Below, piece after piece: positions 5,525-22,269 of a stretch of 33,349 bases of DNA; position 1 is the stretch's first letter; each line of letters opens with the position of its first letter. The notes under the pieces were generated by a model, which saw only the letters and a program-made list of their open reading frames with translations, made no database searches and was not told where the DNA came from. Where the stretch lies: assembly GCA_003152875.1 (NCBI GenBank), contig PMBF01000116.1, positions 1-33,349 on the forward strand. The letters run 5' to 3'. This DNA comes from Ignavibacteriota bacterium. GTDB lineage: Bacteria > Bacteroidota > Ignavibacteria > UBA10030 > UBA6906. The position numbers and the translations under genes were made by a program.

Positions 5525-8500
5525 GAGCGCACCGGCGGTTCAGGATTGATGAAGGAGAGACGTCCGCCGTCGATGTATGCTATCGCCCCTCTGACGGGGC
5601 AGCCGGGGAAGATGTCCCGCAGGATAGCGATGTAGTTGCGGATCTGTTCCCTGTACACCTCTTCCCCACCCTCTCCGCCTGTCTTGAAATCGATCACCGT
5701 CACCTCGGAGGGGTCAATGACAAGCCGGTCCATCCTGTACAGGGCGCCCGAACGGCTCAGGAATTCCTGTTCGGTCCTGACCGTCCTCCCTTCGCGCGGG
5801 ATGAACAGGAGGCGGATCTCCTCAAGGGAGAGGAAAGACAGCAACCGTTCCCTGATGAGCTCCCGCGATTCGATCTCAGAAGGTGCAGAGGAGGACAGGA
5901 CCGACTCGACTGCCGCTGCCGTGTCTCCTTCCAGGAATTCCAGCCGTGCCAGGGCGGTGTGATAGTAGTCTCCGCGCTGCGTCTCAAGGTACCCAATGCG
6001 CCGGGCGTCCCCCGGCCGCGCCGGTGTTCGCAGCGTGTGAGACACAGGGCGGATGGCTCCAGTCGCCGCATCGGTCGTCCTCCTCCCGGGGGCCGGACGA
6101 GCATTCCCGCCCTCCTGGCCGGGAAACAGCATGGACGGGAAACCTCCCTTGCCGTCATCAACGCACACGACATAGAGCTCCTCTTCGGCCCGGGTCAAGG
6201 CCACATACAACCTGTTCAGTTCATCCGCCCTGCATAGTTCCAGCTCGCGCGTGTACTCTGCCTCGAGCTCCGGCGCATTGCCCGATCCCCCTTTGGTGAT
6301 ATGCCAGAGCTCCAGGCCTTCGGGCTCCTCATGGAAAACCATCGGAGAGGGTCGTTTTTCCGCGTCGTAGAGCAGGGTGATCACCACCGGGAATTGAAGC
6401 CCTTTCGCCTTGTGGACGGTCATAACGGTCACGGCTTCCGGGTTCTGCTGCCGTTCAATGCTCCACATCTCCTTGTCACTCTCGTCATCCGTGTACACGA
6501 GGAACTCCTTCAGACTGTTGTTCCCGAGCGCCTCGAACTCCTTCACAACTTCCAGGAACCTGATCAGCCCGCTCTGTTCGTCCTCAGCCAGCCTCAGCAG
6601 ATCGAACGTCTTGAATACCTCGCAGACCACATCGTAGAGCGGGAGATAGCCGACGGCGGAGAACAGGCTTTCGAAGCATCTGTCCCACACAGCCGGGAAC
6701 TGCTCGCGGAAGCGTCCATACAGCGGATGGCGGCCGGCCGGCCCGGTCCGCTGCCAGCGCTCCAGAATGAGCCCTCGCATGACTGCGGAATCGAGGCCGG
6801 GGAACTCGGCTGAACAGAAGGCGCCAAAGAGATCACCCAGGATGAAGGTCGCGAACGCCAGCTCGTCGACCGGAGACTCGAGGAACGAGAGCAGGGCCAG
6901 TAGTTCGGCAGTGGTCTTTCTCGTTCGAATATCGAGGCTGCTGTGGGACAGGAAGGAGATCCGCGCACCATTCAGCCAGGTGCTGATCTCCAGGACAGCC
7001 TGGTTCGATGGGGTCAGGACGGCGATGTCGCCGCGCCGGAAGCCTCGGTGAAGGGCATCGTCGATCAGACCGGTCAGAGCGGCGGCTTCGGGGCGCTCGG
7101 GAGTATTCGGGAGATGCAGCACCTCGACATACCCTGCGCCGCGGCGGGTGTCGGCAGGCTCCTGGATGTAGTCATGGAGGCCGCTCAGGGGTGCGTACCG
7201 GGCATAGCTGGTTGCCGCCACCCGGTTTTGAAAGACTTCTCTTAAGAACCTGACGATGGCCTCGCCGCTCCGGTAATTCCGGTCCAGGCTGGAAGCGATG
7301 ACGGGACTCCCGATGATCGTTTCACGGCCGTCATACAGATTCCGCATGATCCGCCAATCAGCGCCGCGGAACCCATAGATCGATTGTTTTGTATCCCCCA
7401 CGGCGAAAAGAGACCCTCCCTCCGCGAGGGCGTTCTCAACGAGCACGCGCAATGCGGCCCACTGCACGGGGGACGTGTCCTGAAATTCATCGATGAGGTA
7501 ATGTGCAATCCGTTCGCCAAGGACAATCATCACCTGGGGGACCGTACCGGAAGCGAGGAATTCCACCAGCATCCGGTTGACATCGTCGATGGCGATTGCT
7601 CCCTTCCGCCGCTTCGCCTCCTCGATTGCCGATGACACGGTGCGGAGCGCAATGGTAAAGGGCCTGTAAAACAGCGCAGCGTCGAGCACCGCCAGGCGCT
7701 GCCTGGAGCTGTTGAAACGGCCCAGGAGCTCCAGGAACTCATGTTCACGCCCGGCAAGCTCGGCCCTTCCCGCCGCGGTCTTTGGGGTGTTGACCACGGC
7801 GCCCTTTTCTTTTCTCCCCAGCAAAACTCTCCATTCCTCGCCGGCGGCGGCGGCAAGATCGTCCGCGAGGCGGCTGTTCATGGTCAGCGTTGTGGCCGAA
7901 ACGGCCTCCTGCAGCCCGCGGCCGGCCGACCGGAGCTTCTCGAGCTCCCCAGGGAGCTCCCACGACCGGTCTTTCGAGGAAAGGCTTGCGGTCTTTGAGG
8001 CGAGTGTCCGCAGGATCTCCGTGACCCTGGAAATCATGCGCGCGTACGGATCCCACGGAAAGGTTCTTCCGCTCTCAACCTGATCGGTCAGCAGTCTGAC
8101 GACCTGCCGCAGTTCCGCCATCCGCGTCTCGTCGGCTGCCGCCCCACGGGCGTAGACATCAAACGCGTATGCGATCAACGGCTTCTGGTCCATGACGATC
8201 TCGAATTCGGGCTGGAATCCGAACTCGAGGGCGGTGGCTTTGAACACACGCGTCATGAAGCTGTCGATGGTTCTGACCTGGAAATCGCCGTATCTGTCCA
8301 GAATGGTTCCGACCATTTCTCCTGCGCGACGGCTCAGGGCGGCCGCATCGAGCGAAACGAGTGTCCCGGCCTCTGAGGCCGCACTTGCGAGGGGGTCGAG
8401 AGCAATCTCCTTGAGCAACTTCAGGACCCGTTGCTTCATCTCCGCGGCGGCGGCATTGGTGAACGTAACAGCGAGGATATTCTTCAGGTCGTTTCTGGGA

Positions 8501-8631
8501 ACCGCGGGGGAAAGCAGCAGCTGGATCAGCCGCATTGCAAGGGTATGAGTCTTCCCGGCGCCGGCCGAAGCGGAGACAATCATTGCCGACGGGCGGGGAA
8601 GATCCGTGTCGCGTGGAAGAGCAGATGCCAT
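5521..8631 (-). CDS. AddA-like UvrD-family helicase with C-terminal PD-(D/E)XK nuclease domain
   Basis: Walker A 'SASAGAGKTHTLAMRLIQLLL', 'HYLIDEFQDTSPVQW', 'AVGDTKQSIYGFRGAD', 'VMTVHKAKGLQFPVVI', 'RLYVALTRAEEELYVV', and C-terminal 'VTVIDFKTGGEGGEEVYREQIRNY'. The provided ORF runs to 8841; an ATG at 8631 (MASALPRDTD...) just before Walker A is the more plausible start. Confidence 0.88.
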   Translation of the reverse strand: MASALPRDTDLPRPSAMIVSASAGAGKTHTLAMRLIQLLLSPAVPRNDLKNILAVTFTNAAAAEMKQRVLKLLKEIALDPLASAASEAGTLVSLDAAALSRRAGEMVGTILDRYGDFQVRTIDSFMTRVFKATALEFGFQPEFEIVMDQKPLIAYAFDVYARGAAADETRMAELRQVVRLLTDQVESGRTFPWDPYARMISRVTEILRTLASKTASLSSKDRSWELPGELEKLRSAGRGLQEAVSATTLTMNSRLADDLAAAAGEEWRVLLGRKEKGAVVNTPKTAAGRAELAGREHEFLELLGRFNSSRQRLAVLDAALFYRPFTIALRTVSSAIEEAKRRKGAIAIDDVNRMLVEFLASGTVPQVMIVLGERIAHYLIDEFQDTSPVQWAALRVLVENALAEGGSLFAVGDTKQSIYGFRGADWRIMRNLYDGRETIIGSPVIASSLDRNYRSGEAIVRFLREVFQNRVAATSYARYAPLSGLHDYIQEPADTRRGAGYVEVLHLPNTPERPEAAALTGLIDDALHRGFRRGDIAVLTPSNQAVLEISTWLNGARISFLSHSSLDIRTRKTTAELLALLSFLESPVDELAFATFILGDLFGAFCSAEFPGLDSAVMRGLILERWQRTGPAGRHPLYGRFREQFPAVWDRCFESLFSAVGYLPLYDVVCEVFKTFDLLRLAEDEQSGLIRFLEVVKEFEALGNNSLKEFLVYTDDESDKEMWSIERQQNPEAVTVMTVHKAKGLQFPVVITLLYDAEKRPSPMVFHEEPEGLELWHITKGGSGNAPELEAEYTRELELCRADELNRLYVALTRAEEELYVVCVDDGKGGFPSMLFPGQEGGNARPAPGRRTTDAATGAIRPVSHTLRTPARPGDARRIGYLETQRGDYYHTALARLEFLEGDTAAAVESVLSSSAPSEIESRELIRERLLSFLSLEEIRLLFIPREGRTVRTEQEFLSRSGALYRMDRLVIDPSEVTVIDFKTGGEGGEEVYREQIRNYIAILRDIFPGCPVRGAIAYIDGGRLSFINPEPPVRS

Positions 8632-8723
8632 AAATCCCGGTCGATGATATGCTGCCTCAGGCGCAGCCTCAACGAGGAAGGTACTAAAAACCGGCCTGGG
8701 AAAAAACAGAGGCGGCCGCGGAG

Positions 8724-9515
8724 CTACTGCGGGGGATTCCACCCCTTTCGGTTCCACTGAATCAGTTCTATCGTCACGTTGCCGAGCAGTACTGTGAGTT
8801 TTCCCTTGATCGGAACCCCGGCTTCGTCGTCGGAGAACCACCCTTTGAAGTCTCCCGTCATTCCGAAGATCCCTTCGACCGAGGTGTTTCCTTCAACCTT
8901 CACCACCCGGACCGGAGCATCGAGGGCATCGATGGACTCCGTTGAATGGTCCCCCGTAAAGCGAAACGATGTCTGACCGAGTTTTCCGTAGAGGATCGTG
9001 GGAACCTCGACCGTCGTATCCGCCTGGATGAATCGGCGGGGGAAGTAGCCTATGCAGAGCCCGTCCACAAACTCTGATGAGGGGAGCGCAAGAGTATCCT
9101 TCGCTGTCCGCGAATCGGGCTGCGCCGCAGGGTCCTTCAGGTAGATCTCTTCGACGATCACCCGCTTGTTCGGCAGGTCGTACCTGTAGTCCAGTCCCCA
9201 CCACCTGTCTTTCCTTTTCTCAAGCGAGAGCGACCCGTGCGATAGGAAGAGAGAGTCCATCCAGGAGTAGTGGACAGAATGGAGATCCACGAACGGAAGG
9301 CCTGCGTAGGAATCTATATACGCCACCGTTTTCCTGTCCGGGAGGGACTTCAGGCGGATGGTTCCGAGCTTGAACATAGTCCAGCTCACCTCATAGACCA
9401 GATCCTCGCCCTCCTGGTAGATGGCAGGGACCGGCGCGGGGGCCGCAAGGTGAAGGAAGGAAAACCCGATGGCGGCGAGGCCCGCGAGAACGACAATCGT
9501 TCGCATGCGTCTCAT
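8724..9515 (-). CDS. DUF3108-like secreted protein
   Basis: 263 aa with N-terminal signal-like hydrophobic segment. 'YQEGEDLVYEVSWTMFKLGTIRLK' and 'VKVEGNTSVEGIFGMTGDFKGWFSDDEAGVPIKGK' resemble DUF3108 proteins. Confidence 0.75.
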   Translation of the reverse strand: MRRMRTIVVLAGLAAIGFSFLHLAAPAPVPAIYQEGEDLVYEVSWTMFKLGTIRLKSLPDRKTVAYIDSYAGLPFVDLHSVHYSWMDSLFLSHGSLSLEKRKDRWWGLDYRYDLPNKRVIVEEIYLKDPAAQPDSRTAKDTLALPSSEFVDGLCIGYFPRRFIQADTTVEVPTILYGKLGQTSFRFTGDHSTESIDALDAPVRVVKVEGNTSVEGIFGMTGDFKGWFSDDEAGVPIKGKLTVLLGNVTIELIQWNRKGWNPPQ

Positions 9516-9564: not shown

Positions 9565-9624
9565 GCCGGGTGAGATTCAACCAGAAGGGGAAATGCCGGG
9601 TGAGATGCAGCTAGAAGGGGAAAT
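9565..9624. repeat. 30-bp tandem duplication (2 copies, 3 mismatches) spanning the stop codon of the polyferredoxin gene
   Basis: GCCGGGTGAGATTCAACCAGAAGGGGAAAT (9565-9594) and GCCGGGTGAGATGCAGCTAGAAGGGGAAAT (9595-9624). Confidence 0.9.
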
Positions 9625-11197
9625 CCTCGGCAGGTGCGGTGGGCTGGATGACCGGTTTCTGCTCGGGTTTCTTCGCGCGGGCATGGACTCGGTTCGACTC
9701 GACGAAGATCGCCCGGAACGGACGGGTCGGGCACGCGTGCTCGCACGCTCCGCACCCAACGCAGAAGTCCGAACGGACTTCAGGAATCACCAGTTTGTTC
9801 TTGAACGGGACCATGCTGACGGCCTTGGTGGGACAGTGCTCCGAGCAGGCCCCGCAGTCCGTCCCTTCGGTATTGACGATGCAGTTGTCCTTGACGAACT
9901 TCGCGACCCCGAGCTGCGTCAGCTTTTTCTCCTCCTGCTCCATCGGCAGGATCGCTCCGCTCGGACAGACCTGAAGGCACAAGGTGCAGTCGTAATTGCA
10001 GTATGCAACGTCGTAGGCCATGCGCGGCTGGAAAATGCCGCCGATGCCATACTCGAGAAATGATGGCTGGAGCACCCTGGCCGGGCAAACGCTCACGCAG
10101 AGATGACAGGCCGTGCAGGTGGCGGTGAAATGATCAAGTCCCCTGGAGCCGGGCGGGCTGACAGCAAGTGCGGACCCGGTCGGAACGGTTGTCGCTTTGG
10201 TGCTCACGATCTTTTTTCCCACCCCGGGCACCACCCCAAGGACCATCAACGACCCGGCCGCCTGCTGCACAAAGCGCCTGCGCCCCCGGCTCACATTCTC
10301 GCCTCCCCTCTCGCGCCGCTTATGCCAGGGGGTGCGGAAGAACATGTCGTCGCGCGGACAGATTTCGAAACAATTAAAGCAGCCGACGCACCGGTCAAAA
10401 TCCACGGTCATTGCCTTCCGGTCGATGCATCCTGCCTTACACACCCGCTCGCACAGGCCGCATCCCTTGCAGTCCCCCTGGTTGATCGCGACCTTGAAGA
10501 GGGCAAACCGGGACATGAGGCCGAGTACGGCCCCTACCGGACAGATCGTATTGCACCAGAGCCTTCCCCGGGTAAATGAAAACCCGGCGACCACCCCGAG
10601 AATCAGAAGGGCGCCGGCGATCGCAAACCATCCGGGGCGGTACTGCTCAACGGGGTTCACGGTGTAGATATGCAGCAGTTGGAGGGCGAAGGCAAGGACG
10701 TTGTTGGCTCCGATCACAAGCGGACGGCCGAGGGATGCCAGGATTCTCCCGGTGTTGCTGAAGGGATCAAGCAGGGTCGCCGCCATCGTCGAGCCCGCCG
10801 CACATGCCACGATGGTCAGGGCAAGCAGCCCGTAGCGGACCCTGTCATGGCGGGACTGCCGGCGCTGGTACTGTTTCCGCCGGATCTTCCTGGAAAGATA
10901 CGTGAAGAAATCCTGCAGGGTTCCCAGAGGACAGATCGTCGAGCAGTAAACCCGGCCGAACAGCAGTGTGAGGAGGAGGACCGCGATGAATCCCGTTGCC
11001 GCCAGGCAGGCAAGATTGACGAACTTCAACAGGGAAGGGAGGAACTGCAGGTAGGTCACGCCCGTCATGAACGCGGGAGGTACGAATCCCGAAAAGTCAA
11101 GAAACAGCAGGGCGGTCAGGCCGAAGAAGACCAGAGACACTGCAACCCGCCCCCGCTTCAAACTCTTCACCACACCCCCTGCTGAGACATTTCTCAT
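9611..11197 (-). CDS. Membrane polyferredoxin: NapH-like integral membrane ferredoxin fused to a NapG-like 4Fe-4S protein with internal twin-arginine motif
   Basis: NapH-type Cx3CP motifs 'VYCSTICPLG' and 'LWCNTICPVG', multiple CxxCxxC-type 4Fe-4S motifs, and internal 'SRGRRRFVQQAAGSLMVLG' followed by further 4Fe-4S clusters. The ORF was called to 11395; ATG at 11197 (MRNVSAGG...) is the likely start. Confidence 0.82.
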   Translation of the reverse strand: MRNVSAGGVVKSLKRGRVAVSLVFFGLTALLFLDFSGFVPPAFMTGVTYLQFLPSLLKFVNLACLAATGFIAVLLLTLLFGRVYCSTICPLGTLQDFFTYLSRKIRRKQYQRRQSRHDRVRYGLLALTIVACAAGSTMAATLLDPFSNTGRILASLGRPLVIGANNVLAFALQLLHIYTVNPVEQYRPGWFAIAGALLILGVVAGFSFTRGRLWCNTICPVGAVLGLMSRFALFKVAINQGDCKGCGLCERVCKAGCIDRKAMTVDFDRCVGCFNCFEICPRDDMFFRTPWHKRRERGGENVSRGRRRFVQQAAGSLMVLGVVPGVGKKIVSTKATTVPTGSALAVSPPGSRGLDHFTATCTACHLCVSVCPARVLQPSFLEYGIGGIFQPRMAYDVAYCNYDCTLCLQVCPSGAILPMEQEEKKLTQLGVAKFVKDNCIVNTEGTDCGACSEHCPTKAVSMVPFKNKLVIPEVRSDFCVGCGACEHACPTRPFRAIFVESNRVHARAKKPEQKPVIQPTAPAEDFPF

Positions 11198-11261
11198 GAT
11201 GGCTGGATGCATGCAACTCCGCGGAGCCCCCTGTCGGGAAGCACGCGGAGTCTTTCGCCGG

Positions 11262-12203
11262 CTACATTTTGATCCGTTTGATGGAGGCGCTTTCGAGCGA
11301 GCCTTTGCCAAGGCCCATGGAAGCTGCCAGACCGATGTACTTGATCTCCGACGGATCCAGTCCGAAGAGCTTCGTCGCAGCCAGGTCGGCGGCAACGGGG
11401 TCGGGACTCACCAGCTGAGCCTTCATCTGAGACACGTCGCCGCGCGAAACTCCCCGTGGACCATTCTGTTTGAGCACGTTGTAGGCATCCACAATAGTAA
11501 GATCGGGCCTGCGGTAGGAGGCCATATCGGCGATGCACTGGTGCAGGTCGTTCTGGTGCCAGTACGGCCTGTCCCATACAATGCCCATGAGGTTCTTCAT
11601 CCCGATGGTCAGCCGGGCGGAGTCGTGATCCTTAAGGATCGGGACATTCAGGAAGACATCCGCCTGGAGCAGCTGTTCGTGCACCCTGGCCTTCGTCAGG
11701 CGAACTCCCCTTGGCACGTCAACCTCCTGGTAGTTGCTTTCACTGTTCCCCGTGACGATCCTTCCGCCGGCGTCACTGACGGCCTGTTCGATTCCGCTGT
11801 TCTTGTAGCACCGGCTCCAGTTGTCGCATGTATGGTCAAAGACGAAGACCTCTTTGGCCCCGGCATGATAACAATGCTCGATGATGCGGCGGACCAGCCT
11901 GGGATTCGTGTTCCCTGCCCGCTCCGGGTCAACGTCCCACCCTATATTCGGCTTGACAAGAACACGCTGACCCTTCTTGACGAACGCCCCCATTCCGCCA
12001 AGCGCCTCGATGGCCTTGTCGAACATCGCATCGGGTTCCCCGCCCCGGACCGCAATAAGATCAAACGGTCCGGATTCTGCCTTCGATGCCTGGTTCTGGG
12101 GACCCCCCTTGGCCTGGGCGGCCAGCAGCCGGCTTGAGCCTCCCAGCACTGCGACTGCAACGCCGCCACCGATGCTCCGCGCTAGAAATTGCCTGCGATC
12201 CAT
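11262..12203 (-). CDS. Tat-exported DUF362 domain protein
   Basis: Twin-arginine start 'MDRRQFLARSIGGGVAVAVLGGSSRLLAAQ'. 'GQRVLVKPNIGWD', 'VPILKDHDSARLTIGMKNLMGIVWDRPYWH' and 'DLTIVDAYNVLKQNGP' are DUF362-type motifs. Confidence 0.87.
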   Translation of the reverse strand: MDRRQFLARSIGGGVAVAVLGGSSRLLAAQAKGGPQNQASKAESGPFDLIAVRGGEPDAMFDKAIEALGGMGAFVKKGQRVLVKPNIGWDVDPERAGNTNPRLVRRIIEHCYHAGAKEVFVFDHTCDNWSRCYKNSGIEQAVSDAGGRIVTGNSESNYQEVDVPRGVRLTKARVHEQLLQADVFLNVPILKDHDSARLTIGMKNLMGIVWDRPYWHQNDLHQCIADMASYRRPDLTIVDAYNVLKQNGPRGVSRGDVSQMKAQLVSPDPVAADLAATKLFGLDPSEIKYIGLAASMGLGKGSLESASIKRIKM

Positions 12204-12535
12204 GAATTCCTCACTCCTATGAGATTTGTCTGGCGGCACCCCGTTCGCCGATCAGCGACAGAAAAAAACGCCCCCAACGTCCGCCCCGCTGACGGGAAGA
12301 ACCTTGAAGGCGCATGAGAAAGACCGGAGATTGCTTGACCCAACTTGGAAAATACGAGAAATTATGAGAAAAGGCAACGGACACGCTGCGATAGAATCCT
12401 CTTTGGCTGCAGGGACCCCAGGAGCCGGAGCAGAACGACTTTGCAGAGGCCGGGAGAGCTCATTTCGGGCGAAATGTCGCACGGATCTGGATCGCGGCGG
12501 AACCCGGGAAGAAGCGGCCGTCACCTCGCGTCAGC

Positions 12536-14035
12536 TCATTGAACCAGGTAATAGATTCCCTCGTCTCCAACCTGGGAGTCAAAGATTTCTTCGTTATGGG
12601 AGATCACCAGAATGGAATTCCCGCGCTGCTGCCTCTCCCGGAGGAGGTCGAGTACGCGAATGCTGCTCTCGAAATCCAGGCCATTGAGAGGCTCATCCAG
12701 AATGATCAGACCCGTCTCCAGGGAGAGGCCGCGGAGAAGGTTGAGACGCTGCTTCTGACCGCCGCTCAGATTGGAGACTTCGCGTTCCAGGATCTCGTCC
12801 GCCATATCGGGCTCGAACAACTCGTGAAGCGTCCGGCGGACCCAATCCCGGGTCGGCATCGACTCTGTGGGAAGTCCTTTGAACGTGTCGAAAACGGTAG
12901 AGCGGGGATTCAGCGCCTCGTCGGCGTGCTGAAACACCATGGTCATGCTTTTCCCCCATACACGCTTCCGCCAGAACTCTTCACGGGTCCCCACTCCGAC
13001 GGTATCCCCGCCCAGTGTCATGCTGAAGCGCTCACCGCGGAGGAGACCGATCATCATCTTGGCAAGCGTGGTCTTCCCGGTCCCGCTCGGGGCCTTCAGG
13101 TAGGTCATGGCCCCTTGATTGAGCACAAGCGGCGCGGGGACGGATCCCTCCCGGTCGCGGGCTATCGTCAAGGTCCGGTGGAAAACGCCGACGTCGCTCT
13201 CTATCCGGGCGATCTGCCTCCCCCCGGGGGACCGCGGTGGGGGGTGTTGGACTGAAAGCCATCCGAGGTATGTCTCCGGTTCGAATTTCCGGAGCACCAA
13301 AGCACTCTTCTCGAGCGCCAGTTCACGGAACACGACAGCTTCCGCAAGATCCTTGTGCTCTTTCCTGATCATGCTGATGAGGGAATAGTCATGGCTGACG
13401 ACTACCCCGGTAAAGGCCATACGCCGGTAGCGGTCGAACAGCATGCTGAGCACGATATCCCGGAACCTGTTGTCCAGACTTCCCGTCGGTTCGTCGAACA
13501 GGAACAACGAGGGAAGTTCAGCCTCTCCCCTCGCAAGAAAGAGGTCGATCTTTTTGAAGGCCATCGCCAGCAGCATCCGTTGTTTCTCTCCGCCGCTCGG
13601 CCGATAAGGCTTCGGGTAGACCCCGAGCAGGCTGGATGGCCGGGCCGTCGGGGTTCCGCTCCAGAGCTCTCCCAGGATCGCGTCCTCGCTGACGGAGTCT
13701 TTGAGCGATCCCTCCCGGAGCTGCTCGCCAAGCGTCAGGAGGGGATATAAATGAGTGGAGGGCTCCTGGAAAACGAAGAAGCCGTTTTCCTGGACGGAAC
13801 GAACCCACGGGGTCGAGGTGTAGGACGCTGCATCCTGGCCGTTGATGGTCGCCTGGAATTCATCTCCATCAAGCAGGCCGTACACCGCGCGGTTGATCAG
13901 CGACTTGCCGATGCCCGATTCCCCGAACAGTATCATCAGGCGCCGCTCGGGAAGGCTGTAGTCCGGGATGTCCACAAGGGTGCGGTTGCCGGCCCGGATA
14001 CGGATGGAAAACGAAAGCTCGCGGGGGGAGTTCAC
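12536..14035 (-). CDS. Fused two-domain ABC ATPase (Opp/DppD-F-like)
   Basis: Domain 1: GESGIGKS, Q-loop 'VFQEPSTHLYP', signature SGGEKQR, 'LFLFDEPTGSLD', 'VVSHD'. Domain 2: APSGTGKT, 'VFQHADEALNPRS', LSGGQKQR, 'LIILDEPLNGLD', 'VISHN'. GTG start at 14035 (VNSPREL...) overlaps the upstream permease stop as GTGA; the N-terminus of the provided ORF before it is spurious. Confidence 0.88.
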   Translation of the reverse strand: MNSPRELSFSIRIRAGNRTLVDIPDYSLPERRLMILFGESGIGKSLINRAVYGLLDGDEFQATINGQDAASYTSTPWVRSVQENGFFVFQEPSTHLYPLLTLGEQLREGSLKDSVSEDAILGELWSGTPTARPSSLLGVYPKPYRPSGGEKQRMLLAMAFKKIDLFLARGEAELPSLFLFDEPTGSLDNRFRDIVLSMLFDRYRRMAFTGVVVSHDYSLISMIRKEHKDLAEAVVFRELALEKSALVLRKFEPETYLGWLSVQHPPPRSPGGRQIARIESDVGVFHRTLTIARDREGSVPAPLVLNQGAMTYLKAPSGTGKTTLAKMMIGLLRGERFSMTLGGDTVGVGTREEFWRKRVWGKSMTMVFQHADEALNPRSTVFDTFKGLPTESMPTRDWVRRTLHELFEPDMADEILEREVSNLSGGQKQRLNLLRGLSLETGLIILDEPLNGLDFESSIRVLDLLRERQQRGNSILVISHNEEIFDSQVGDEGIYYLVQ

Positions 14036-14889
14036 AGACGCCGCCTCCTCACAAAGCCGGCGGTGATCGTGTGGATGCACAGGAGGGTGAAAATCAACGC
14101 AAAGGCAACGCTCAGACCCTGGAGATGGCGGAAGAACAGCTGGGGCGTGTAGGCGGGATCCGTCAGGATGGTCCCCACCGCCAGGATGTCCTGTTTGCTG
14201 TCCATGGTCGCCAGAAGTCCTCCGAGGGTTGCCGGGAAATTGCTTGCGCTGACCTCGGTGGAGAGCCCGACCGACAGGATGAAGTCGATGCTGCACTGCA
14301 GGAAGACTGCCATGCCGAAGACCGCAATCATGGCGTGAAGGAGGTGTGCCCGGCTGTTCTTCCAGAGGATTTCCACATTCACAATCCTGGCTTCACTCAC
14401 GCCGCAGCAGAGCATGGCGGGATAGAAATCGAGCGCGGCGAATTGCGCGATACGCCCCCGCACAAGGTCTGCGATGTCAAGGAACACGAACACCGCCACG
14501 ATCGCCGACATCCAGAAAAGGAGGGCTGCCGACCCAACCAACACCTCCCGCTCGATGAGGAGCGTCAGCACAATGTAGCCCGCCAGGATGCCCACGATCT
14601 GCGGGACCGAGCGCACAATGTTCAGGAGAAACGTCATGGTGAGATACACACCCTTCCGGCCCCGGCGCTCCAGCAGGTAGAGGCCGGCTCCGCAGGCCCA
14701 GCCGAGCAGCAGGGCAAGCACGACCACGGTCAGTCCGGCCGCCAGGGTATTGAACAACGCGTTCAGCAACCTCTTCAGGGCAGGGTTGTTCAGGAATGCC
14801 AGATCCCAGAGCAGGAGCACCCCCATGCCGGCAAGCCAGACGAGGAGCCAGACGAGATCGGGCCTTGCGGCGAGCTTCTCACCCTTCAT
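14032..14889 (-). CDS. ABC transporter permease (OppC-like, divergent)
   Basis: 285 aa with multiple predicted TM segments. EAA-loop-like 'ALDFYPAMLCCGVSEARIVNVEILWKNSRAHLLHAMIAVFGMAVFLQCSIDFIL'. Located between a second permease and the ATPase with overlapping ORFs. Confidence 0.8.
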   Translation of the reverse strand: MKGEKLAARPDLVWLLVWLAGMGVLLLWDLAFLNNPALKRLLNALFNTLAAGLTVVVLALLLGWACGAGLYLLERRGRKGVYLTMTFLLNIVRSVPQIVGILAGYIVLTLLIEREVLVGSAALLFWMSAIVAVFVFLDIADLVRGRIAQFAALDFYPAMLCCGVSEARIVNVEILWKNSRAHLLHAMIAVFGMAVFLQCSIDFILSVGLSTEVSASNFPATLGGLLATMDSKQDILAVGTILTDPAYTPQLFFRHLQGLSVAFALIFTLLCIHTITAGFVRRRRL

Positions 14890-15976
14890 TGGCGAATCTC
14901 CGGGTCACGAGATGCACCCGCCAATCGACCGCAAGCTCGGTCAGCTTGACAAGCAGGAACATCCCGAACAGGATCGTGACGACGACGTCATACCGGCGGT
15001 AGAGGATGTTCTGGAGCAGCTCGTAGCCGAGATGTCCCTGGATGTTCAGGGCCATTTCGATGATGATCAGGCCAGTGATGAGGAACGACGCATGCTCCTT
15101 GAGGGCGGGAACGAGCTGGAAACGTGCCTGGAGATAGATCTGCTGGAAGATATGGCCTGTAGCGAACTCGCGGGGCCGCCAGAGGAGTCTGAGGGGAAGT
15201 CCGTGCGGCGAGTTCCAACCCCACCCGGCCCTGAGGTTCTTCACCCGTGCGGTATCGACGTACCCTTTCCGGCTCTCCGCTGTAAGGAGATTGAAGAACC
15301 GTGTCGCGTAGTTGATCAGGACTCCGTTGGTAAAAACCGCGAGGAGGATCATGAAGAGAATGGACCCTGTGTCGATCCGTCCCTTGAGCGCATATGCAAC
15401 GACATAGGCTGGTGAAAACAGGATGAACCCGGCAACGGCGGAGCCTGCCGCTCTCAGAAGGAGTCTCAACAGCATGCGGCCGTCCGCACCGCGGCGCTCG
15501 AGAACGAGCCGGAGCAGGCGGGTGGGTGCTGAACCGCCTCCCTGCTTCGCGCTGACGAACGTCAGGACCGCAAGGCTTCGTGCGGCAACGGAAGTGAGGA
15601 GGAGGGTCACGAGATAGACTGCGACAAATTGGAGATACATCCCCCCAAGCCGGGCAAGATCCGCGCCTGTCATCGTCCGCTCAACGCCCGATTTGTACTC
15701 CCGGTTCGTGAACCGCTCCGCCCGGTAGGAATCGATAGCGCCGAGAAGCGAATCGGAAGGCTGACCCGGGAAAAAGGTTTCCGCCGTTTCCCGGAACAGC
15801 TCGCGGTGATAGGGATTGGAGAGATCGACCGAATCGAGGGAGAGGAACGGAGCGAGGGCTTCGTCGCGTTGTGCCCGTGAGTCAGACTGCATTGACGAAT
15901 ACCACCAGAGCGCTGCAAGAAAGAGGAGACCCACACAGAAGACGCTCAGGCCGTGTTCAATGACCTTGCTTCTCAT
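14879..15976 (-). CDS. ABC transporter permease (OppB-like)
   Basis: 'ESRKGYVDTARVKNLRAGW' resembles the OppB EAA loop. 'ITGLIIIEMALNIQGHLGYELLQNILYRRYDVVVTILFGMFLLVKLTELAVDW' resembles the OppB C-terminus. Start MRSKVIEH at 15976 overlaps the upstream stop (ATGA). Confidence 0.82.
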   Translation of the reverse strand: MRSKVIEHGLSVFCVGLLFLAALWWYSSMQSDSRAQRDEALAPFLSLDSVDLSNPYHRELFRETAETFFPGQPSDSLLGAIDSYRAERFTNREYKSGVERTMTGADLARLGGMYLQFVAVYLVTLLLTSVAARSLAVLTFVSAKQGGGSAPTRLLRLVLERRGADGRMLLRLLLRAAGSAVAGFILFSPAYVVAYALKGRIDTGSILFMILLAVFTNGVLINYATRFFNLLTAESRKGYVDTARVKNLRAGWGWNSPHGLPLRLLWRPREFATGHIFQQIYLQARFQLVPALKEHASFLITGLIIIEMALNIQGHLGYELLQNILYRRYDVVVTILFGMFLLVKLTELAVDWRVHLVTRRFANEG

Positions 15977-16821
15977 GGGAGGCGGACCGTGATGAGGCCC
16001 GGGACCGTCTCGACGCGGCATCCAGTTCCGATGAGGGAATTCTCGATGTCTTTAGCCAGAAAGCCCGCGCTGCCGTCGAAGGTCGAATGCGGGCTGGCGC
16101 CCGAGAATTCGCAGACCAGCGCGCCCCGTTCAGGTGTGAGCCTCCAGAGCGGCGGGGAGAGGTTTCGGCCTGCCCGCCGGTCGAACAAACCAAAGAGCCG
16201 GCGGAGGACGGTATTCGTCTCGTCAATCTTCAGGCGGACCATACTTTCGACGGTTGACCGATCGCCCCGCACCTGACTTCCCGGCACGTGATACGAACGG
16301 AGCCCTGCCTCCGAGGCCCGATGGATCCATCCGAGGCTTCCCTTCGGGGAGAGCAGCCTGACATAGATCGAGCCCCCCGACCTGAAGAGCCTCTGCAGCA
16401 GTGAACCTCTGCCGGCGCGATGTACGCCTCCCGACTCGGGTTCCACGGTGACGCCCGCGGCGGCCTGGACCGTGTCGCCGAGCAGTTCGGCCCCCTCGAT
16501 CGAACGGATCCGTCCTGCCTCACCAGCTCCAGCGAGTCCGCCCGACGTGTCCCTGACGAAGAAGAAGGTCTCTCCCTCCGCACGCACGACCATGCTGGAC
16601 GTGTAGCCGTCGGGCAGCATCTCCTGCGGCCTGACGACGATGACCGGTGCAAACGGCGCGAGTCTCTTCAACTCTTCCGTCGTCGCGGCCTGCTGGTACT
16701 GGTTGAAGACCATCAGCTTCTCAGGCCGCTCGATGAGGAGCACCCGCACTCCAGCCGTGGCGCCGCAGGCCAGGACAGAGCCCAGGAAGGCGAGCAATGC
16801 GGTACGCCGTCGGTGTGTCAT
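15973..16821 (-). CDS. Membrane-anchored protein of unknown function within the ABC operon
   Basis: 282 aa with N-terminal hydrophobic segment 'TALLAFLGSVLACGATAGVRVLLI'. No family recognised. It begins 12 bp after the upstream gene ends and has a 4-bp overlap with the downstream gene. Confidence 0.7.
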   Translation of the reverse strand: MTHRRRTALLAFLGSVLACGATAGVRVLLIERPEKLMVFNQYQQAATTEELKRLAPFAPVIVVRPQEMLPDGYTSSMVVRAEGETFFFVRDTSGGLAGAGEAGRIRSIEGAELLGDTVQAAAGVTVEPESGGVHRAGRGSLLQRLFRSGGSIYVRLLSPKGSLGWIHRASEAGLRSYHVPGSQVRGDRSTVESMVRLKIDETNTVLRRLFGLFDRRAGRNLSPPLWRLTPERGALVCEFSGASPHSTFDGSAGFLAKDIENSLIGTGCRVETVPGLITVRLP

Positions 16822-16833
16822 CGGCCCGCCGGC

Positions 16834-18699
16834 TTACTTTTTCCGTTCCTGCCACTTCTTGACGGTGGAGAGCTGCGAGGCTACTCCGTACAGGTCGATG
16901 CTGCTCGCATCGAACTGCGTGCTGAAATACGCAAGCGAAGGCATGGAGAAGAGCCACGCGCCGAGGCACAAATCGTGCTCCAGCGCGTCGATACGACGCG
17001 CATATTCCTGTTTGTCGCCGATCTGGTGGGTCGACATGAAGCCGTAGAGATACTGAAGGAACGTGGCGATGTTCGCGGCGTCCGCTCTGTCGGTCGTCGG
17101 ATCCAGGCGGAAGAAGTTGCGATCCGCCCGGAACGACGAAGGATCCGCCGTCAGGCCTCCACGGCCGTCCGGAACCGTCTGGAGGCTGATGCGATACGTT
17201 TCCAAGTCGGGTTCCCGCAGGAAGACTGTATAGAGGTCAAACAGGAAATTGCTCCGGTATCCGGTGACCGCGATCAACAGGGCGTCATAATTGCCTTTCC
17301 TGACCTCGTCGTTCGTGACCGCGGTAACTCGCACTTTCCCCCGGGTGACCGTCGGATCGTTCAGGATCTCGATGAGGTCGGAAAACTCTTCCCGGAACCC
17401 GGAGTTCAGGCAGGCCTGAATGCGGACGGTGTCCGGGAGGAGACCGGGGTTCGCCGGCTGGTCATCGACGGCCGGAGTGACGACGCTGTCTTCGACGTAG
17501 TACGAGGTGGAGGGAAAAACGCTCCGGTTCAGGTAATCGGCGTAATTGTCGTGATTTCCCTTGTAGTCGAGGATATGCCGCGCTTGTTCGGTGCCGACCT
17601 TGTAGAACCTGTCGAGGATCAGCTTGTTGTTGATGAGCCTCCTGAGTTCCCGCCTCTGGTCTCTGTTCAATCTGGCTGTGTTGAAACAGAGGGCAAAGAA
17701 TGTGTTGCTGATGTTGGATTTCACGAAATACTTCGCGGTATCGCCAAGGATCGGGGAGAGAGAGCCGAACGGCGTGTCCAGCATCAGGTTGATCTTGGTG
17801 TTCCGCAGCTCCGTCGTATATGTGCTGTTGTCGATGAACGGCGCGAGGAGGATGTTGGGAATGACCCCTCCTCCTTCCGGCGAGCGGTAGTAGTTCGAAA
17901 CCCCCTCCTTCGGCGGAAGGGCCAGATAGGAGGCGGAACCGACGCGGTATGTCAGCGCGTTCATGTCGGACCCGTCCGGAAGAATCTTGAACGAGAGCAC
18001 CTCCTTGATATCCGACTCCTTCCAGATGCGGTCTCCCCTGAACTGAAACCGGATCAGGCCGTCCATGTCAGGCCCCTGGAATCCCCAGGTAATCAGGGCC
18101 TGGGAAACCAGAATGTAGTCGGGGGAGAGGCTGCCAAGCTGCTGAATCCGTTTCAGCGTGAAGTTCAGGTCGGCTGGACCGAAAAGGTGGTCGGTCCCCT
18201 TGGTGATCGTGAACTTGTCGTCGGCCGCAGCCACCTGCCAGCTGTCGTGCCAGCGCTTGCCGGTTCTGAGCCTGACGGTCACGACATTATTCTGGTCGAT
18301 CCCCCGGAAATCGCCAAGCCCGTCCTCGTAGACGACCCCGCTCGGGCTGGCGACAAGGTTGAAGAGCCCGTCGAACTGCACCTCATCCAGCTTGTCGGCC
18401 AGGGAGTTGGTGCTCGGCAGATGGGGATCAATAGCGGGCTTCTGGTGCGAGATGTACGGGATAACGATTTCGCCGGAAAGATCGGGTCTTGTCAGAAAAT
18501 AGACCAGGACGCCTACGCCGGCCACAAGGACTGCGATGGCGGTGATGAGCGGCCAACGCTTCCGATTGGGATGGACGGGCCGGTGGAAAGGAGTTTCCTC
18601 ACCGATCGTGTCGGGCGGGAGCGGGCGGGTCTGCTGTACCGGGCGGGGCGGCTGCTTCGGTTGTTCGGCCGGCTGTTGCTCATTGGTGTTGTCGTCCAT
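16834..18699 (-). CDS. Signal-anchored ABC solute-binding-like protein (SBP_bac_5-like)
   Basis: ATG at 18699 with upstream GGAG. N-terminal 'MDDNTNEQQPAEQPKQPPRPVQQTRPLPP...' tail, single TM 'WPLITAIAVLVAGVGVLVYFL', then 'DKLDEVQFDGLFNLV', 'VTVRLRTGKRWHDS', 'FGPADLNFTLKRIQ', resembling peptide-binding proteins. The provided ORF extends upstream into spurious sequence. Confidence 0.75.
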   Translation of the reverse strand: MDDNTNEQQPAEQPKQPPRPVQQTRPLPPDTIGEETPFHRPVHPNRKRWPLITAIAVLVAGVGVLVYFLTRPDLSGEIVIPYISHQKPAIDPHLPSTNSLADKLDEVQFDGLFNLVASPSGVVYEDGLGDFRGIDQNNVVTVRLRTGKRWHDSWQVAAADDKFTITKGTDHLFGPADLNFTLKRIQQLGSLSPDYILVSQALITWGFQGPDMDGLIRFQFRGDRIWKESDIKEVLSFKILPDGSDMNALTYRVGSASYLALPPKEGVSNYYRSPEGGGVIPNILLAPFIDNSTYTTELRNTKINLMLDTPFGSLSPILGDTAKYFVKSNISNTFFALCFNTARLNRDQRRELRRLINNKLILDRFYKVGTEQARHILDYKGNHDNYADYLNRSVFPSTSYYVEDSVVTPAVDDQPANPGLLPDTVRIQACLNSGFREEFSDLIEILNDPTVTRGKVRVTAVTNDEVRKGNYDALLIAVTGYRSNFLFDLYTVFLREPDLETYRISLQTVPDGRGGLTADPSSFRADRNFFRLDPTTDRADAANIATFLQYLYGFMSTHQIGDKQEYARRIDALEHDLCLGAWLFSMPSLAYFSTQFDASSIDLYGVASQLSTVKKWQERKK

Positions 18700-18731
18700 A
18701 GTAACTCCTGTCTCCATTGACCAGTGATCAA

Positions 18732-20954
18732 TCAGTTCTTCCTGATCAGCGGCACCTGCGCCATCGCGCTGATCTCGAACACTCTGAAGCCCGGATACTT
18801 GAAGTGGATTTCCAGGACATTGCTGCCAGCTTTGTCCATTTCCACCGGAGAGATCTGAGATTCGTAGTTGTTCGAAGCCATGGGCGCGGTGATGCGGAAC
18901 CTGCCTTCGTTCCTGATCGGCTTCTTGTTGAGGGTGATCTCCTGGTACCACTGTTCTGTCCCGGCCTTCTCAGCCACCTCATGCGGGAGCTTGATGTTGA
19001 TGTCGAACACGGGGAACTGGGCTTCGGAAGGGATGCGCAGGCCCAGGCGGAAGATGTATTCGTTTGTCCCGCGCGGGCTGGTGGACACCGGCATGGCAAA
19101 AAGCCTGCGGTACTCCCTGGCCTTCACGATCCATTTGGCCGCAGCGGGATTGCACTCATCAACCAACCCCTTCACCTGTTTGTCTGTGCCTTTGTAGAAC
19201 TTCCCATGGTCCACAATGGCACGTGCCTTCTCCACCCCCCTGTCGCCGACGTTTTTGATGAAGTCCGCGTAAATGGCCTTGATCGAGTTTTCCGGGAACC
19301 GGACGTACTTGATCTGGTCCAGGTAATCGTCGATCTGCTTCCGCTTGGCGGCAAGATCGCCGGGCCCGACGGAGCTGAAGCTCAGCTGATGGACCGGCAA
19401 GAAGACCGAGTCCTGGTACAGAGCCGGGACGTTTTCATAGCTGGCTTCATGCTGCCTGGCAAATGCGTCAACCCGCTGCTGCGAGGCCAGCTTCACCCCA
19501 TCGAAGAGTTGCGATTCCAGGTGCCGCGTGATTTGCGTGCGCTGATCCATAAGGGACTCTGGTGAGGAGAGGTCATCCCCATTGAAGAGCTGGCGCAGGG
19601 AAGACTCCGCAGCCGGCCACACCTTCGCTTCGAGGCTTGCCGAGGCCCTGGCGGCATTTCCGTACACCATTTCCTGATCGTTCACCCGGCTTGCCGCGTT
19701 TCCTATCTCCCTGGTCATGCGGACGGCACAGGGATAGCCGCCGAAATGCTCGATCCTTCCCGAAAGCGGCTCGGGGAGGGAAGGCTTGATCTGCGACACC
19801 TTCGAGACCTGCATAGTGAAAAATGCTTCGCCAGCAGTAGGGAGATTCCGGGTTGTCTGCTGATCCAGCTCCTTGAGCCGGCTGTTGACGGAGGCGAGCG
19901 CCTCACTCTCAACGTTGAACTGCTTGACGAACTTCACAAGGCCGTAGACCTCCTTCGACACCGGTTTCCCGCATGACTGGTAGAGGTCCACAAGGGAGTT
20001 GTCCGGCTGGGGCTTTATCGGGCCGATGTCGTTCTTTGAACCCAGGAGCTGGTCATAGTACGGCAAGACTCCGTCCAGGCGCACTGAGAGGAGCGTCCTC
20101 AACCTTTCCGCAGCGCCCGAGGGGAAGCTCTTCGCATGCTTCATGCTTTCGGCCATCGAGGGCACCCCCTCCAGAAAGGCTGCCGTGTTCCCCCTGCTGT
20201 CATGCTCGATATTCACGATCGAGAGGACACGGGCAAAGTTCTCCTGAAAATCCAATTCGTCGTCGAGGCGGGTCTTCAGCTCGGTGTACTGCTTATAGGC
20301 GGTATCCTGGGAGGAAGCGATGTTCTCCGGAAAGACGGAGGCAAGAGAGTTCAGCTCATCCCGGAGGGCACGGAGTTTCACGCTGCGCTGCTGGAGTGCA
20401 GGAAGCTCGGCGGCGGCATTGAGGCCGTCCAGGTTCGTCGTGGGCGAGATGCCTTCGTAGCCCGTCCGGTCGACGCTGTTCGCCCCGAGGGTCCCCCGGT
20501 ATGCGGTGTAGCGTATTTCGAACGTGTAACGCCACGCAGGAACGTACCGGTAATGCATCGCCAGCTGCAAATCCTGCCGAACCGTGTCGATGACCCAGAA
20601 GAACATCGGGCTCCGCGGATCGACGGCATAAACCATGAGGGAATCGTTCGCCGCCGCCTCATCGATAATCGGCTTGAACGGTCCTTCCTTCCCATCGAAT
20701 TGCCTGGTGAGGAAGGCATGCATCGCGAGTTTCTGGTCGATGACCAAAACGAGCTTGAAGTTGTCGTGCGCCGGCGGCGGGAACTGGATGTAGTACTTCT
20801 TGTCGCGCGAAAGCTCGAAGTTGTCCTTGTTGTCTTTCAGCTCGATATAGCCGCGCTCAGCCGGCAGGAGCGGCGGGTCAGGCTCAAGCTCCTTGTAGGC
20901 TGCACAGCCGGCAAGGAGAAACGTGAAAAGGAATAACAAGGGGAGACGTTTCAT
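18732..20954 (-). CDS. Large lipoprotein of unknown function
   Basis: ATG at 20954 with GGAGG at 20959-20963. Signal peptide and lipobox 'MKRLPLLFLFTFLLAGCAAYKELEPD'. 740 aa, no recognisable family. Confidence 0.8.
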   Translation of the reverse strand: MKRLPLLFLFTFLLAGCAAYKELEPDPPLLPAERGYIELKDNKDNFELSRDKKYYIQFPPPAHDNFKLVLVIDQKLAMHAFLTRQFDGKEGPFKPIIDEAAANDSLMVYAVDPRSPMFFWVIDTVRQDLQLAMHYRYVPAWRYTFEIRYTAYRGTLGANSVDRTGYEGISPTTNLDGLNAAAELPALQQRSVKLRALRDELNSLASVFPENIASSQDTAYKQYTELKTRLDDELDFQENFARVLSIVNIEHDSRGNTAAFLEGVPSMAESMKHAKSFPSGAAERLRTLLSVRLDGVLPYYDQLLGSKNDIGPIKPQPDNSLVDLYQSCGKPVSKEVYGLVKFVKQFNVESEALASVNSRLKELDQQTTRNLPTAGEAFFTMQVSKVSQIKPSLPEPLSGRIEHFGGYPCAVRMTREIGNAASRVNDQEMVYGNAARASASLEAKVWPAAESSLRQLFNGDDLSSPESLMDQRTQITRHLESQLFDGVKLASQQRVDAFARQHEASYENVPALYQDSVFLPVHQLSFSSVGPGDLAAKRKQIDDYLDQIKYVRFPENSIKAIYADFIKNVGDRGVEKARAIVDHGKFYKGTDKQVKGLVDECNPAAAKWIVKAREYRRLFAMPVSTSPRGTNEYIFRLGLRIPSEAQFPVFDINIKLPHEVAEKAGTEQWYQEITLNKKPIRNEGRFRITAPMASNNYESQISPVEMDKAGSNVLEIHFKYPGFRVFEISAMAQVPLIRKN

Positions 20955-20985: not shown

Positions 20986-21014
20986 AATATATCAACGATT
21001 CCGGCCTCCTTCAA
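20986..21014 (-). promoter_or_regulatory. Candidate sigma70-type promoter for the lipoprotein/ABC operon
   Basis: Minus strand TTGAAG (21014-21009), 17-nt spacer, TATATT (20991-20986), about 32 bp upstream of the start codon. Confidence 0.5.
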
Positions 21015-21160: not shown

Positions 21161-21397
21161 TCATTGCCCGGGCGCACCCTGCGGACCGGCTGGCGGGAAA
21201 TTCTCGCCCGGAACCCCGCGAAGATGCGTTGGCCCCTCAGGGAGTTTTCGGATAAGACGGCCTGAGCGGCGGGCCGCATCCGTAAGGAGGTATTCAATCT
21301 GCGCGTTGACGCTGCGGAGCTCATCGGCCGCCCACCGTTCCAGGGCTTCGTAGAGATCGTCGCTGACGCGCAGGAGGAATCGTTTCTTCCCTGTCAT
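21161..21397 (-). CDS. Small ribbon-helix-helix (Arc-like) DNA-binding protein
   Basis: 78 aa: '[44 protein letters not shown]' is a typical RHH fold. ATGA overlap with the upstream SPFH gene. Confidence 0.82.
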
Positions 21398-22269
21398 GCG
21401 TACAGAGTCCCGGTGTTGATAACCGGCTGCGCCTCCCGATCCGCGACAAGCGCCACCAGAAGGTTGTTCACCATCGACGCCTTCCGCTCTTCGTCCAGCT
21501 GCACGACACCCCTCTCACTGAGCATCTGGAGCGCCTCCTGCACCATCCCTACGGCACCCTCCACGATCTTTTGTCTGGCCGCAACAATCGCCTCCGCTTG
21601 CTGCCGCCGCAGCATCGCCTGAGCGATTTCCGGCGCGTAAGCCAGATGGCTGATGCGCGCATCGGAGATCTCAACCCCTGCAAGCTCCAGACGGGAGTGG
21701 ACCTCGCGGGTGAGCCGGTCCAGGACCTCCGCCGTGCTGCCGCGGAGTGAGGCCTTGCCTTCCGCATGTGCATCGTAGGGATACTGAGAGGCAAGCGAGC
21801 GGATTGCCGTCTCACTCTGAATCCCCACGAACGCTTCATAGCTCTCCACATCGAAGAGCGCCTTCGCCGAGTCGACGACACGCCAGACGATCACCGCGGC
21901 GATTTCAATCGGGTTGCCGTTGAGATCGTTCACCTTGAGCCTTTCACTGTTGAAGTTGTGGACCCGGAGCGAGATCGAGCGCTTGACGGTCAGAGGGTTC
22001 GTCCACCAGAACCCAGCCTGAAGGACCGATCCGCTGTACTTCCCCAGGAATACCAGCACTCTCGCTTCGTTGGGATGGACGATGAAGAAACCCGGAATGA
22101 GCAGGGATACCACAATCATATCGGGGAAGAAGAACCATAACAGTGATGCATCACGAGTCCTGACAACCTCCACCAGAGACCAGACTCCTGCCAGGGTCAA
22201 GAGAACCGTCACCAGCGACATGACGAAGCCGTTTATCTTGAGTGCGGGTCTTTCACTGACAGAGAGCAT
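21394..22269 (-). CDS. SPFH/Band 7 (stomatin/prohibitin-like) membrane protein
   Basis: Two N-terminal TM stretches, then '[34 protein letters not shown]', '[36 protein letters not shown]', '[47 protein letters not shown]'. RBS GGAGG at 22276-22280. Confidence 0.92.

Follow-up and report, generated by a model that had tools for sequence, protein, structure and literature searches.

The Opp/Dpp/Nik ABC transporters are built from OppB-type and OppC-type permeases with EAA-like loops, an SBP5-like binding protein and paired ATPase domains. The YejABEF and YejBEF-YepA transporters combine a family-5 binding protein with a pair of unlike permeases and an ATPase whose two domains are fused, and YejBEF-YepA of Agrobacterium imports muropeptides (cell-wall fragments) in bacteria without AmpG (PMC9790009). 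Here we describe a six-gene set from an Ignavibacteriota bacterium that resembles both groups in the named components. Unlike the E. coli yej operon, it also encodes a lipoprotein and an SH3-like subunit. Unlike Opp/Dpp/Nik, it combines a binding protein predicted to be anchored with permeases below the Pfam cut-off and two extra envelope proteins, the oligo_HPY extension is not among the families listed for 28 of its ATPases, and its binding protein is the best conserved component. No description of the set was found in the open papers searched; relative to these, the joining of the core with the two extra proteins and the inverted conservation pattern are new, while the core itself is distantly related to Opp/Dpp/Yej.

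The stretch analysed (the window) comprises 33,349 nt of contig PMBF01000116.1 in assembly GCA_003152875.1, a genome of 3.96 Mb. All six genes lie on the minus strand and were named in order of transcription: the lipoprotein S1 (740 aa, 18732..20954), the SBP5-like binding protein S2 (621 aa, 16834..18699), the predicted exported protein S3 (282 aa, 15973..16821), the OppB-like permease S4 (365 aa, 14879..15976), the OppC-like permease S5 (285 aa, 14032..14889) and the fused two-domain ABC ATPase S6 (499 aa, 12536..14035). An earlier note on this DNA had described six contiguous ORFs, and all of them were found open between these coordinates. Its spacings were also exact, with gaps of 32 nt (S1-S2) and 12 nt (S2-S3), followed by an ATGA overlap (15973-15976), an 11-nt overlap (14879-14889) and a GTGA overlap (14032-14035). 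A promoter-like site on the minus strand (20986..21014), directly 5' of S1, reads TTGAAG-17-TATATT from 21014 to 20986 with TG preceding the second hexamer. It is a consensus match only and was graded weak, because three such sites occur in the region against 1.9 expected.

The neighbouring genes are also on the minus strand. Upstream of the set are an SPFH/Band-7 protein and then a small ribbon-helix-helix protein overlapping by 4 nt (21161-22269). Directly downstream are a multi-4Fe-4S membrane protein and a DUF362 protein whose N-terminus is twin-arginine-like (9611-12239). At 2702-8841, a PD-(D/E)XK nuclease lies next to a UvrD-type helicase that itself matches PD-(D/E)XK weakly; both are long and resemble an AddAB-type recombination pair.

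Relatives were gathered by a genome scan with S6. The scan depends on exact peptide words, so lineages may be missed and the set may also occur outside the phyla found; taxon labels are as given by the submitters. About 40 loci were returned at 41-56% identity, after which identity fell to about 25-35% for ordinary transporters. By label, nearly all of these loci came from Bacteroidota-like phyla and their neighbours, including Ignavibacteriota, Chlorobiota, Calditrichota, Fibrobacterota, Raymondbacteria and a group labelled Latescibacterota or Zixibacteriota. Complete S1-S6 in the same order and on the same strand was present in 25 of 42 S6 loci, belonging to Ignavibacteriota/Chlorobiota/Bacteroidota, Calditrichota, Fibrobacterota and Raymondbacteria, and most of the others were cut by contig ends or had the ATPase located apart. 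The relatives repeat the S1-S6 order with median spacings of 30, 24, -4, -4 and -4 nt. S2 was kept in 12 of 13 genomes chosen for a split, incomplete or interrupted S6 locus, and each of the 24 loci retrieved with S2 had S1 next to it. In the S2 tree, the rows nearest to the window were labelled Ignavibacteriota, Chlorobiota and Bacteroidota.

S2 occurred as a single copy and on an all-or-none basis, in 12 of 297 genomes of the home phylum, 29 of 40 of the Calditrichota group, 19 of 101 of the Fibrobacterota group and 3 of 16 of the group holding the 'Zixibacteriota' and 'Latescibacterota' bins; since genomes share descent, these counts are not independent events. Within the 297-genome home-phylum sample, S1 was present in exactly the 12 S2-positive genomes, and S3 in 11 of these 12 and in no S2-negative genome. 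The recurrence of the set is far beyond chance, and the six genes are a discrete, single-copy, conserved system; with their order kept across phyla and S1, S2 and S3 co-occurring, the proposal of the earlier note that they form one dedicated unit holds. That note had also named in advance two findings that would speak against it, namely homologs of S1 and S3 lying mostly away from the transporter, and a match of the whole set to a characterised family. In the 297-genome sample, S1 and S3 were confined to genomes with the transporter, and Pfam, NCBIfam, PDB and the open papers searched gave no family covering the set.

No seventh gene recurred, as no neighbour family was present in more than 5 of the 42 loci, and where single loci had genes inserted inside the set (MBOAT/DltD-like, Uma2, ClpP and others), these did not recur. 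For example, an MBOAT acyltransferase and a DltD/DUF1574-like gene lie between S2 and S3 in locus L029 (4188-6697) and are absent from the other loci. One locus labelled Deltaproteobacteria (L025) groups with the Calditrichota-like phylum and has its gene neighbourhood, and its label is probably wrong. The loci labelled Latescibacterota (L027) and Zixibacteriota (L053) fall into one phylum-level group of 16 genomes, so one of these labels is probably wrong as well. A flagellar link was rejected, with flagellin found in 7 of the 12 S2-positive home-phylum genomes and in 12 of 20 S2-negative ones, and thus not associated. A defence system was rejected as the PADLOC matches were generic ATPase matches only. 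There was no match of S2 among 72,556 plasmid records and no match of S1-S3 to phage families.

In 28 members, Walker A, Q-loop, signature, Walker B glutamate and switch histidine were intact in both halves of S6, which therefore has the two ATPase domains with complete catalytic motifs expected of Opp/Dpp. The oligo_HPY extension (PF08352), expected there too, was absent from the window S6 and from the 25 families listed, of 30, for the 28 members, whereas the YejF and OppD controls matched it. S6 and YejF were 27% identical over nearly the full length. The fusion of the two ATPases pointed out in the earlier note is real, but its standing as a departure from Opp/Dpp-type systems was overstated, since YejF is also fused.

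EAA-like loops were found in both permeases, ESRKGYVDTARVKNL in S4 and DFYPAMLCCGVSEARIVN in S5, and S4 has in addition a periplasmic segment of about 85 aa after TM1. In profile-profile comparison, S4 scored 90% with OppB and S5 scored 65% with OppC, against 0.6% and 7% for the crossed comparisons. The window S4 and S5 gave no match to Pfam BPD_transp_1, while the E. coli OppB and OppC controls matched it strongly; 10 of 37 S5 relatives did match (best 1.3e-7).

The S2 of the window scored 14.1 bits against SBP_bac_5 (PF00496), below the cut-off of 32.4, so it barely matches a family that E. coli YejA matches strongly. SBP_bac_5 was matched by 18 of 29 S2 relatives (best E 2.1e-9), and a profile of six E. 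coli SBP5 proteins was matched by S2 with 96% probability (E 1.8e-9, profile-profile), mainly in the first lobe. The N-terminus has a hydrophobic segment of 18-24 residues in 28 of 29 members (peak KD 2.58; residues ~50-70 in the window protein), with neither a lipobox nor a conserved cleavage site. An inner-membrane anchor is therefore credible, and the anchoring from inside proposed in the earlier note is supported at the level of prediction. The proline-rich cytoplasmic tail ahead of the anchor in the window protein is not conserved in the family, and conservation is even along the whole length of S2. S2 is thus predicted to be neither the free periplasmic nor the lipidated form expected of an Opp/Dpp binding protein. 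By profile-profile comparison only, S2, S4 and S5 are remote relatives of Opp/Dpp; because the oligo_HPY extension was not found and the binding protein is predicted to be neither free nor lipidated, the set was left out of that family. It may well work like an Opp/Dpp importer all the same.

S1 carries the lipobox LLAGC, and Cys17 is invariant in 23 of 23 aligned sequences, as expected of a bacterial lipoprotein; S1 is accordingly predicted to be lipidated. The model (mean pLDDT 89.9) contains an N-terminal beta domain (residues ~37-139), a helical rod of about 460 residues (140-600) and a C-terminal beta domain (606-732), the last being the best conserved region (0.69). A Foldseek search with the model gave no convincing fold match, and its likeness to helical rods was weak. 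The middle region resembles BIRC6, Munc13 MUN and Tip20 at the level of fold only (TM-scores of 0.11-0.14 on the query) without sequence relation, which we regard as chance likeness of helical rods. In E. coli, the localisation of lipoproteins follows a rule on Asp at position +2. S1 has no Asp at this position, and by that rule it is probably located in the outer membrane, facing the periplasm.

In its model (mean pLDDT 89.5), S3 consists of a beta-rich region and an alpha/beta C-terminal part. Foldseek gave no match with E < 1e-3 and no convincing fold, while several of the better matches, all weak, were to SH3-containing proteins; an SH3_3 match was also found in one family member (E 0.01). 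Compared with SH3-domain envelope proteins of the NlpC/P60 and lysostaphin types, S3 lacks a hydrolase domain and has an added alpha/beta C-terminal part. Its N-terminal hydrophobic stretch is short (peak KD 1.46; 19 residues in the window protein, mostly 9-17 across the family), and behind it there are often ends that resemble those of signal peptides, such as SIA/Q or YA/Q. These features favour a cleaved signal peptide over the anchor assigned to this protein earlier, and S3 is probably secreted and SH3-like. One locus (L028, 6553-9172) is complete except for S3; there, S4 directly follows S2 and most of the S4 periplasmic segment is gone. In genome G001 (L136 and L140, contig C2), the order is permuted to S4-S5-S6-S1-S2 with no S3 found, and rodA and a penicillin-binding protein are encoded nearby. 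As S3 is absent in the former and was not found beside the other genes in the latter, it is not strictly required. A contact between S3 and S4, suggested by the joint loss in L028, was weakened as a candidate, for G001 retains the S4 segment with no S3 found.

For a common set of 14 loci, pairwise identity averaged 0.58 for S2, 0.52 for S5, 0.49 for S6, 0.44 for S4, 0.38 for S1 and 0.24 for the fast-evolving S3. Binding proteins usually diverge fast, and it is unusual for one to exceed its ATPase in conservation. Among the E. coli paralogues compared, the binding proteins were the least alike, with 39% mean column identity against 47% and 45% for the permeases. As the slowest-evolving part, S2 could have a structural role rather than that of a scavenger. 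The strongest distance correlations were S1-S2 (0.86, some of which shared descent alone would yield) and S4-S6 (0.86). Together with the constant adjacency of S1 and S2 and the permuted order in one genome, they suggest that S1-S2 and S4-S5-S6 are two separate modules and that the system can, in at least one case, do without S3.

We consider it reasonably probable that the six genes encode a type-I, binding-protein-dependent ABC importer in which the binding protein is tethered and a lipoprotein is dedicated to the system, derived from Opp/Dpp but clearly split off. The channel would be formed by two different permeases, OppB-like S4 and OppC-like S5, and S6 would provide two complete ATP sites. 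A transmembrane segment of its own would fix S2 to the inner membrane and so keep it beside the channel instead of letting it diffuse freely. Through its helical rod and conserved C-terminal domain, S1 would most likely hand substrate to S2 or position it, and S3 would act as an exported SH3-like helper. Import is the direction that we infer, the contact between S1 and S2 is deduced from their co-evolution, and a small peptide-like substrate is a guess from ancestry. The peptide transport, sensing and envelope-spanning roles put forward in the earlier note are likewise conjectures. The set might even form a trans-envelope importer, in which the outer-membrane S1 rod docks on tethered S2 and makes a physical conduit or gate from the outer to the inner membrane with no diffusing binding protein; this extension is tentative.

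The conservation pattern also fits an envelope-maintenance machine, in which ATP would drive mechanical or assembly work across the periplasm and S2 would serve as a structural adaptor that has lost solute binding. S2 is better conserved than both S6 and S1 in the 14 loci and evenly so along its length, as expected of an interface protein, and S1 is a lipoprotein with a long helical rod. However, both permeases have importer-type EAA-like loops and align to OppB and OppC, respectively, and SBP5 homology is still detectable in S2, so that we hold this reading to be unlikely. The predicted permanent tether of the binding protein might instead serve ligand sensing, with occupancy reported by ATP turnover and no transport. 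Against this, the importer core is complete and no kinase, regulator or other signalling neighbour recurs around it in the 42 loci, which makes a sensing complex very improbable.

A special case of the importer reading concerns the substrate. The interest in muropeptides came from YejBEF-YepA, which takes them up in AmpG-less bacteria; the six-gene set has a fused ATPase and OppBC-type permeases as this proven muropeptide importer does (PMC9790009). S3, through its SH3-like matches, would then touch peptidoglycan, and in G001 rodA and a penicillin-binding protein are indeed close by. That neighbourhood is a single case, however, and an AmpG-like permease coexists with the set in most positive genomes; we regard muropeptide import as improbable, more so than the envelope machine. 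The window genome's AmpG-like match (E 2e-45) is below the NCBIfam curated cut-off, as are those in most positives, and such matches are lacking more often in S2-negative genomes in two phyla. With AmpG-like permeases present alongside the set, its role as a simple AmpG replacement is unsupported.

In conclusion, the preferred reading remains a binding-protein-dependent importer of unusual composition. The set is an all-or-none, single-copy ABC system spread over several diderm phyla, and it includes two protein families without known homologues. Its slowest-evolving part is the binding protein, the opposite of the usual pattern. It offers a testable target, being an unexplained gene set of little-studied bacteria near Bacteroidota, and the bridging of S1 to S2, if true, would be a new way of feeding an ABC importer.
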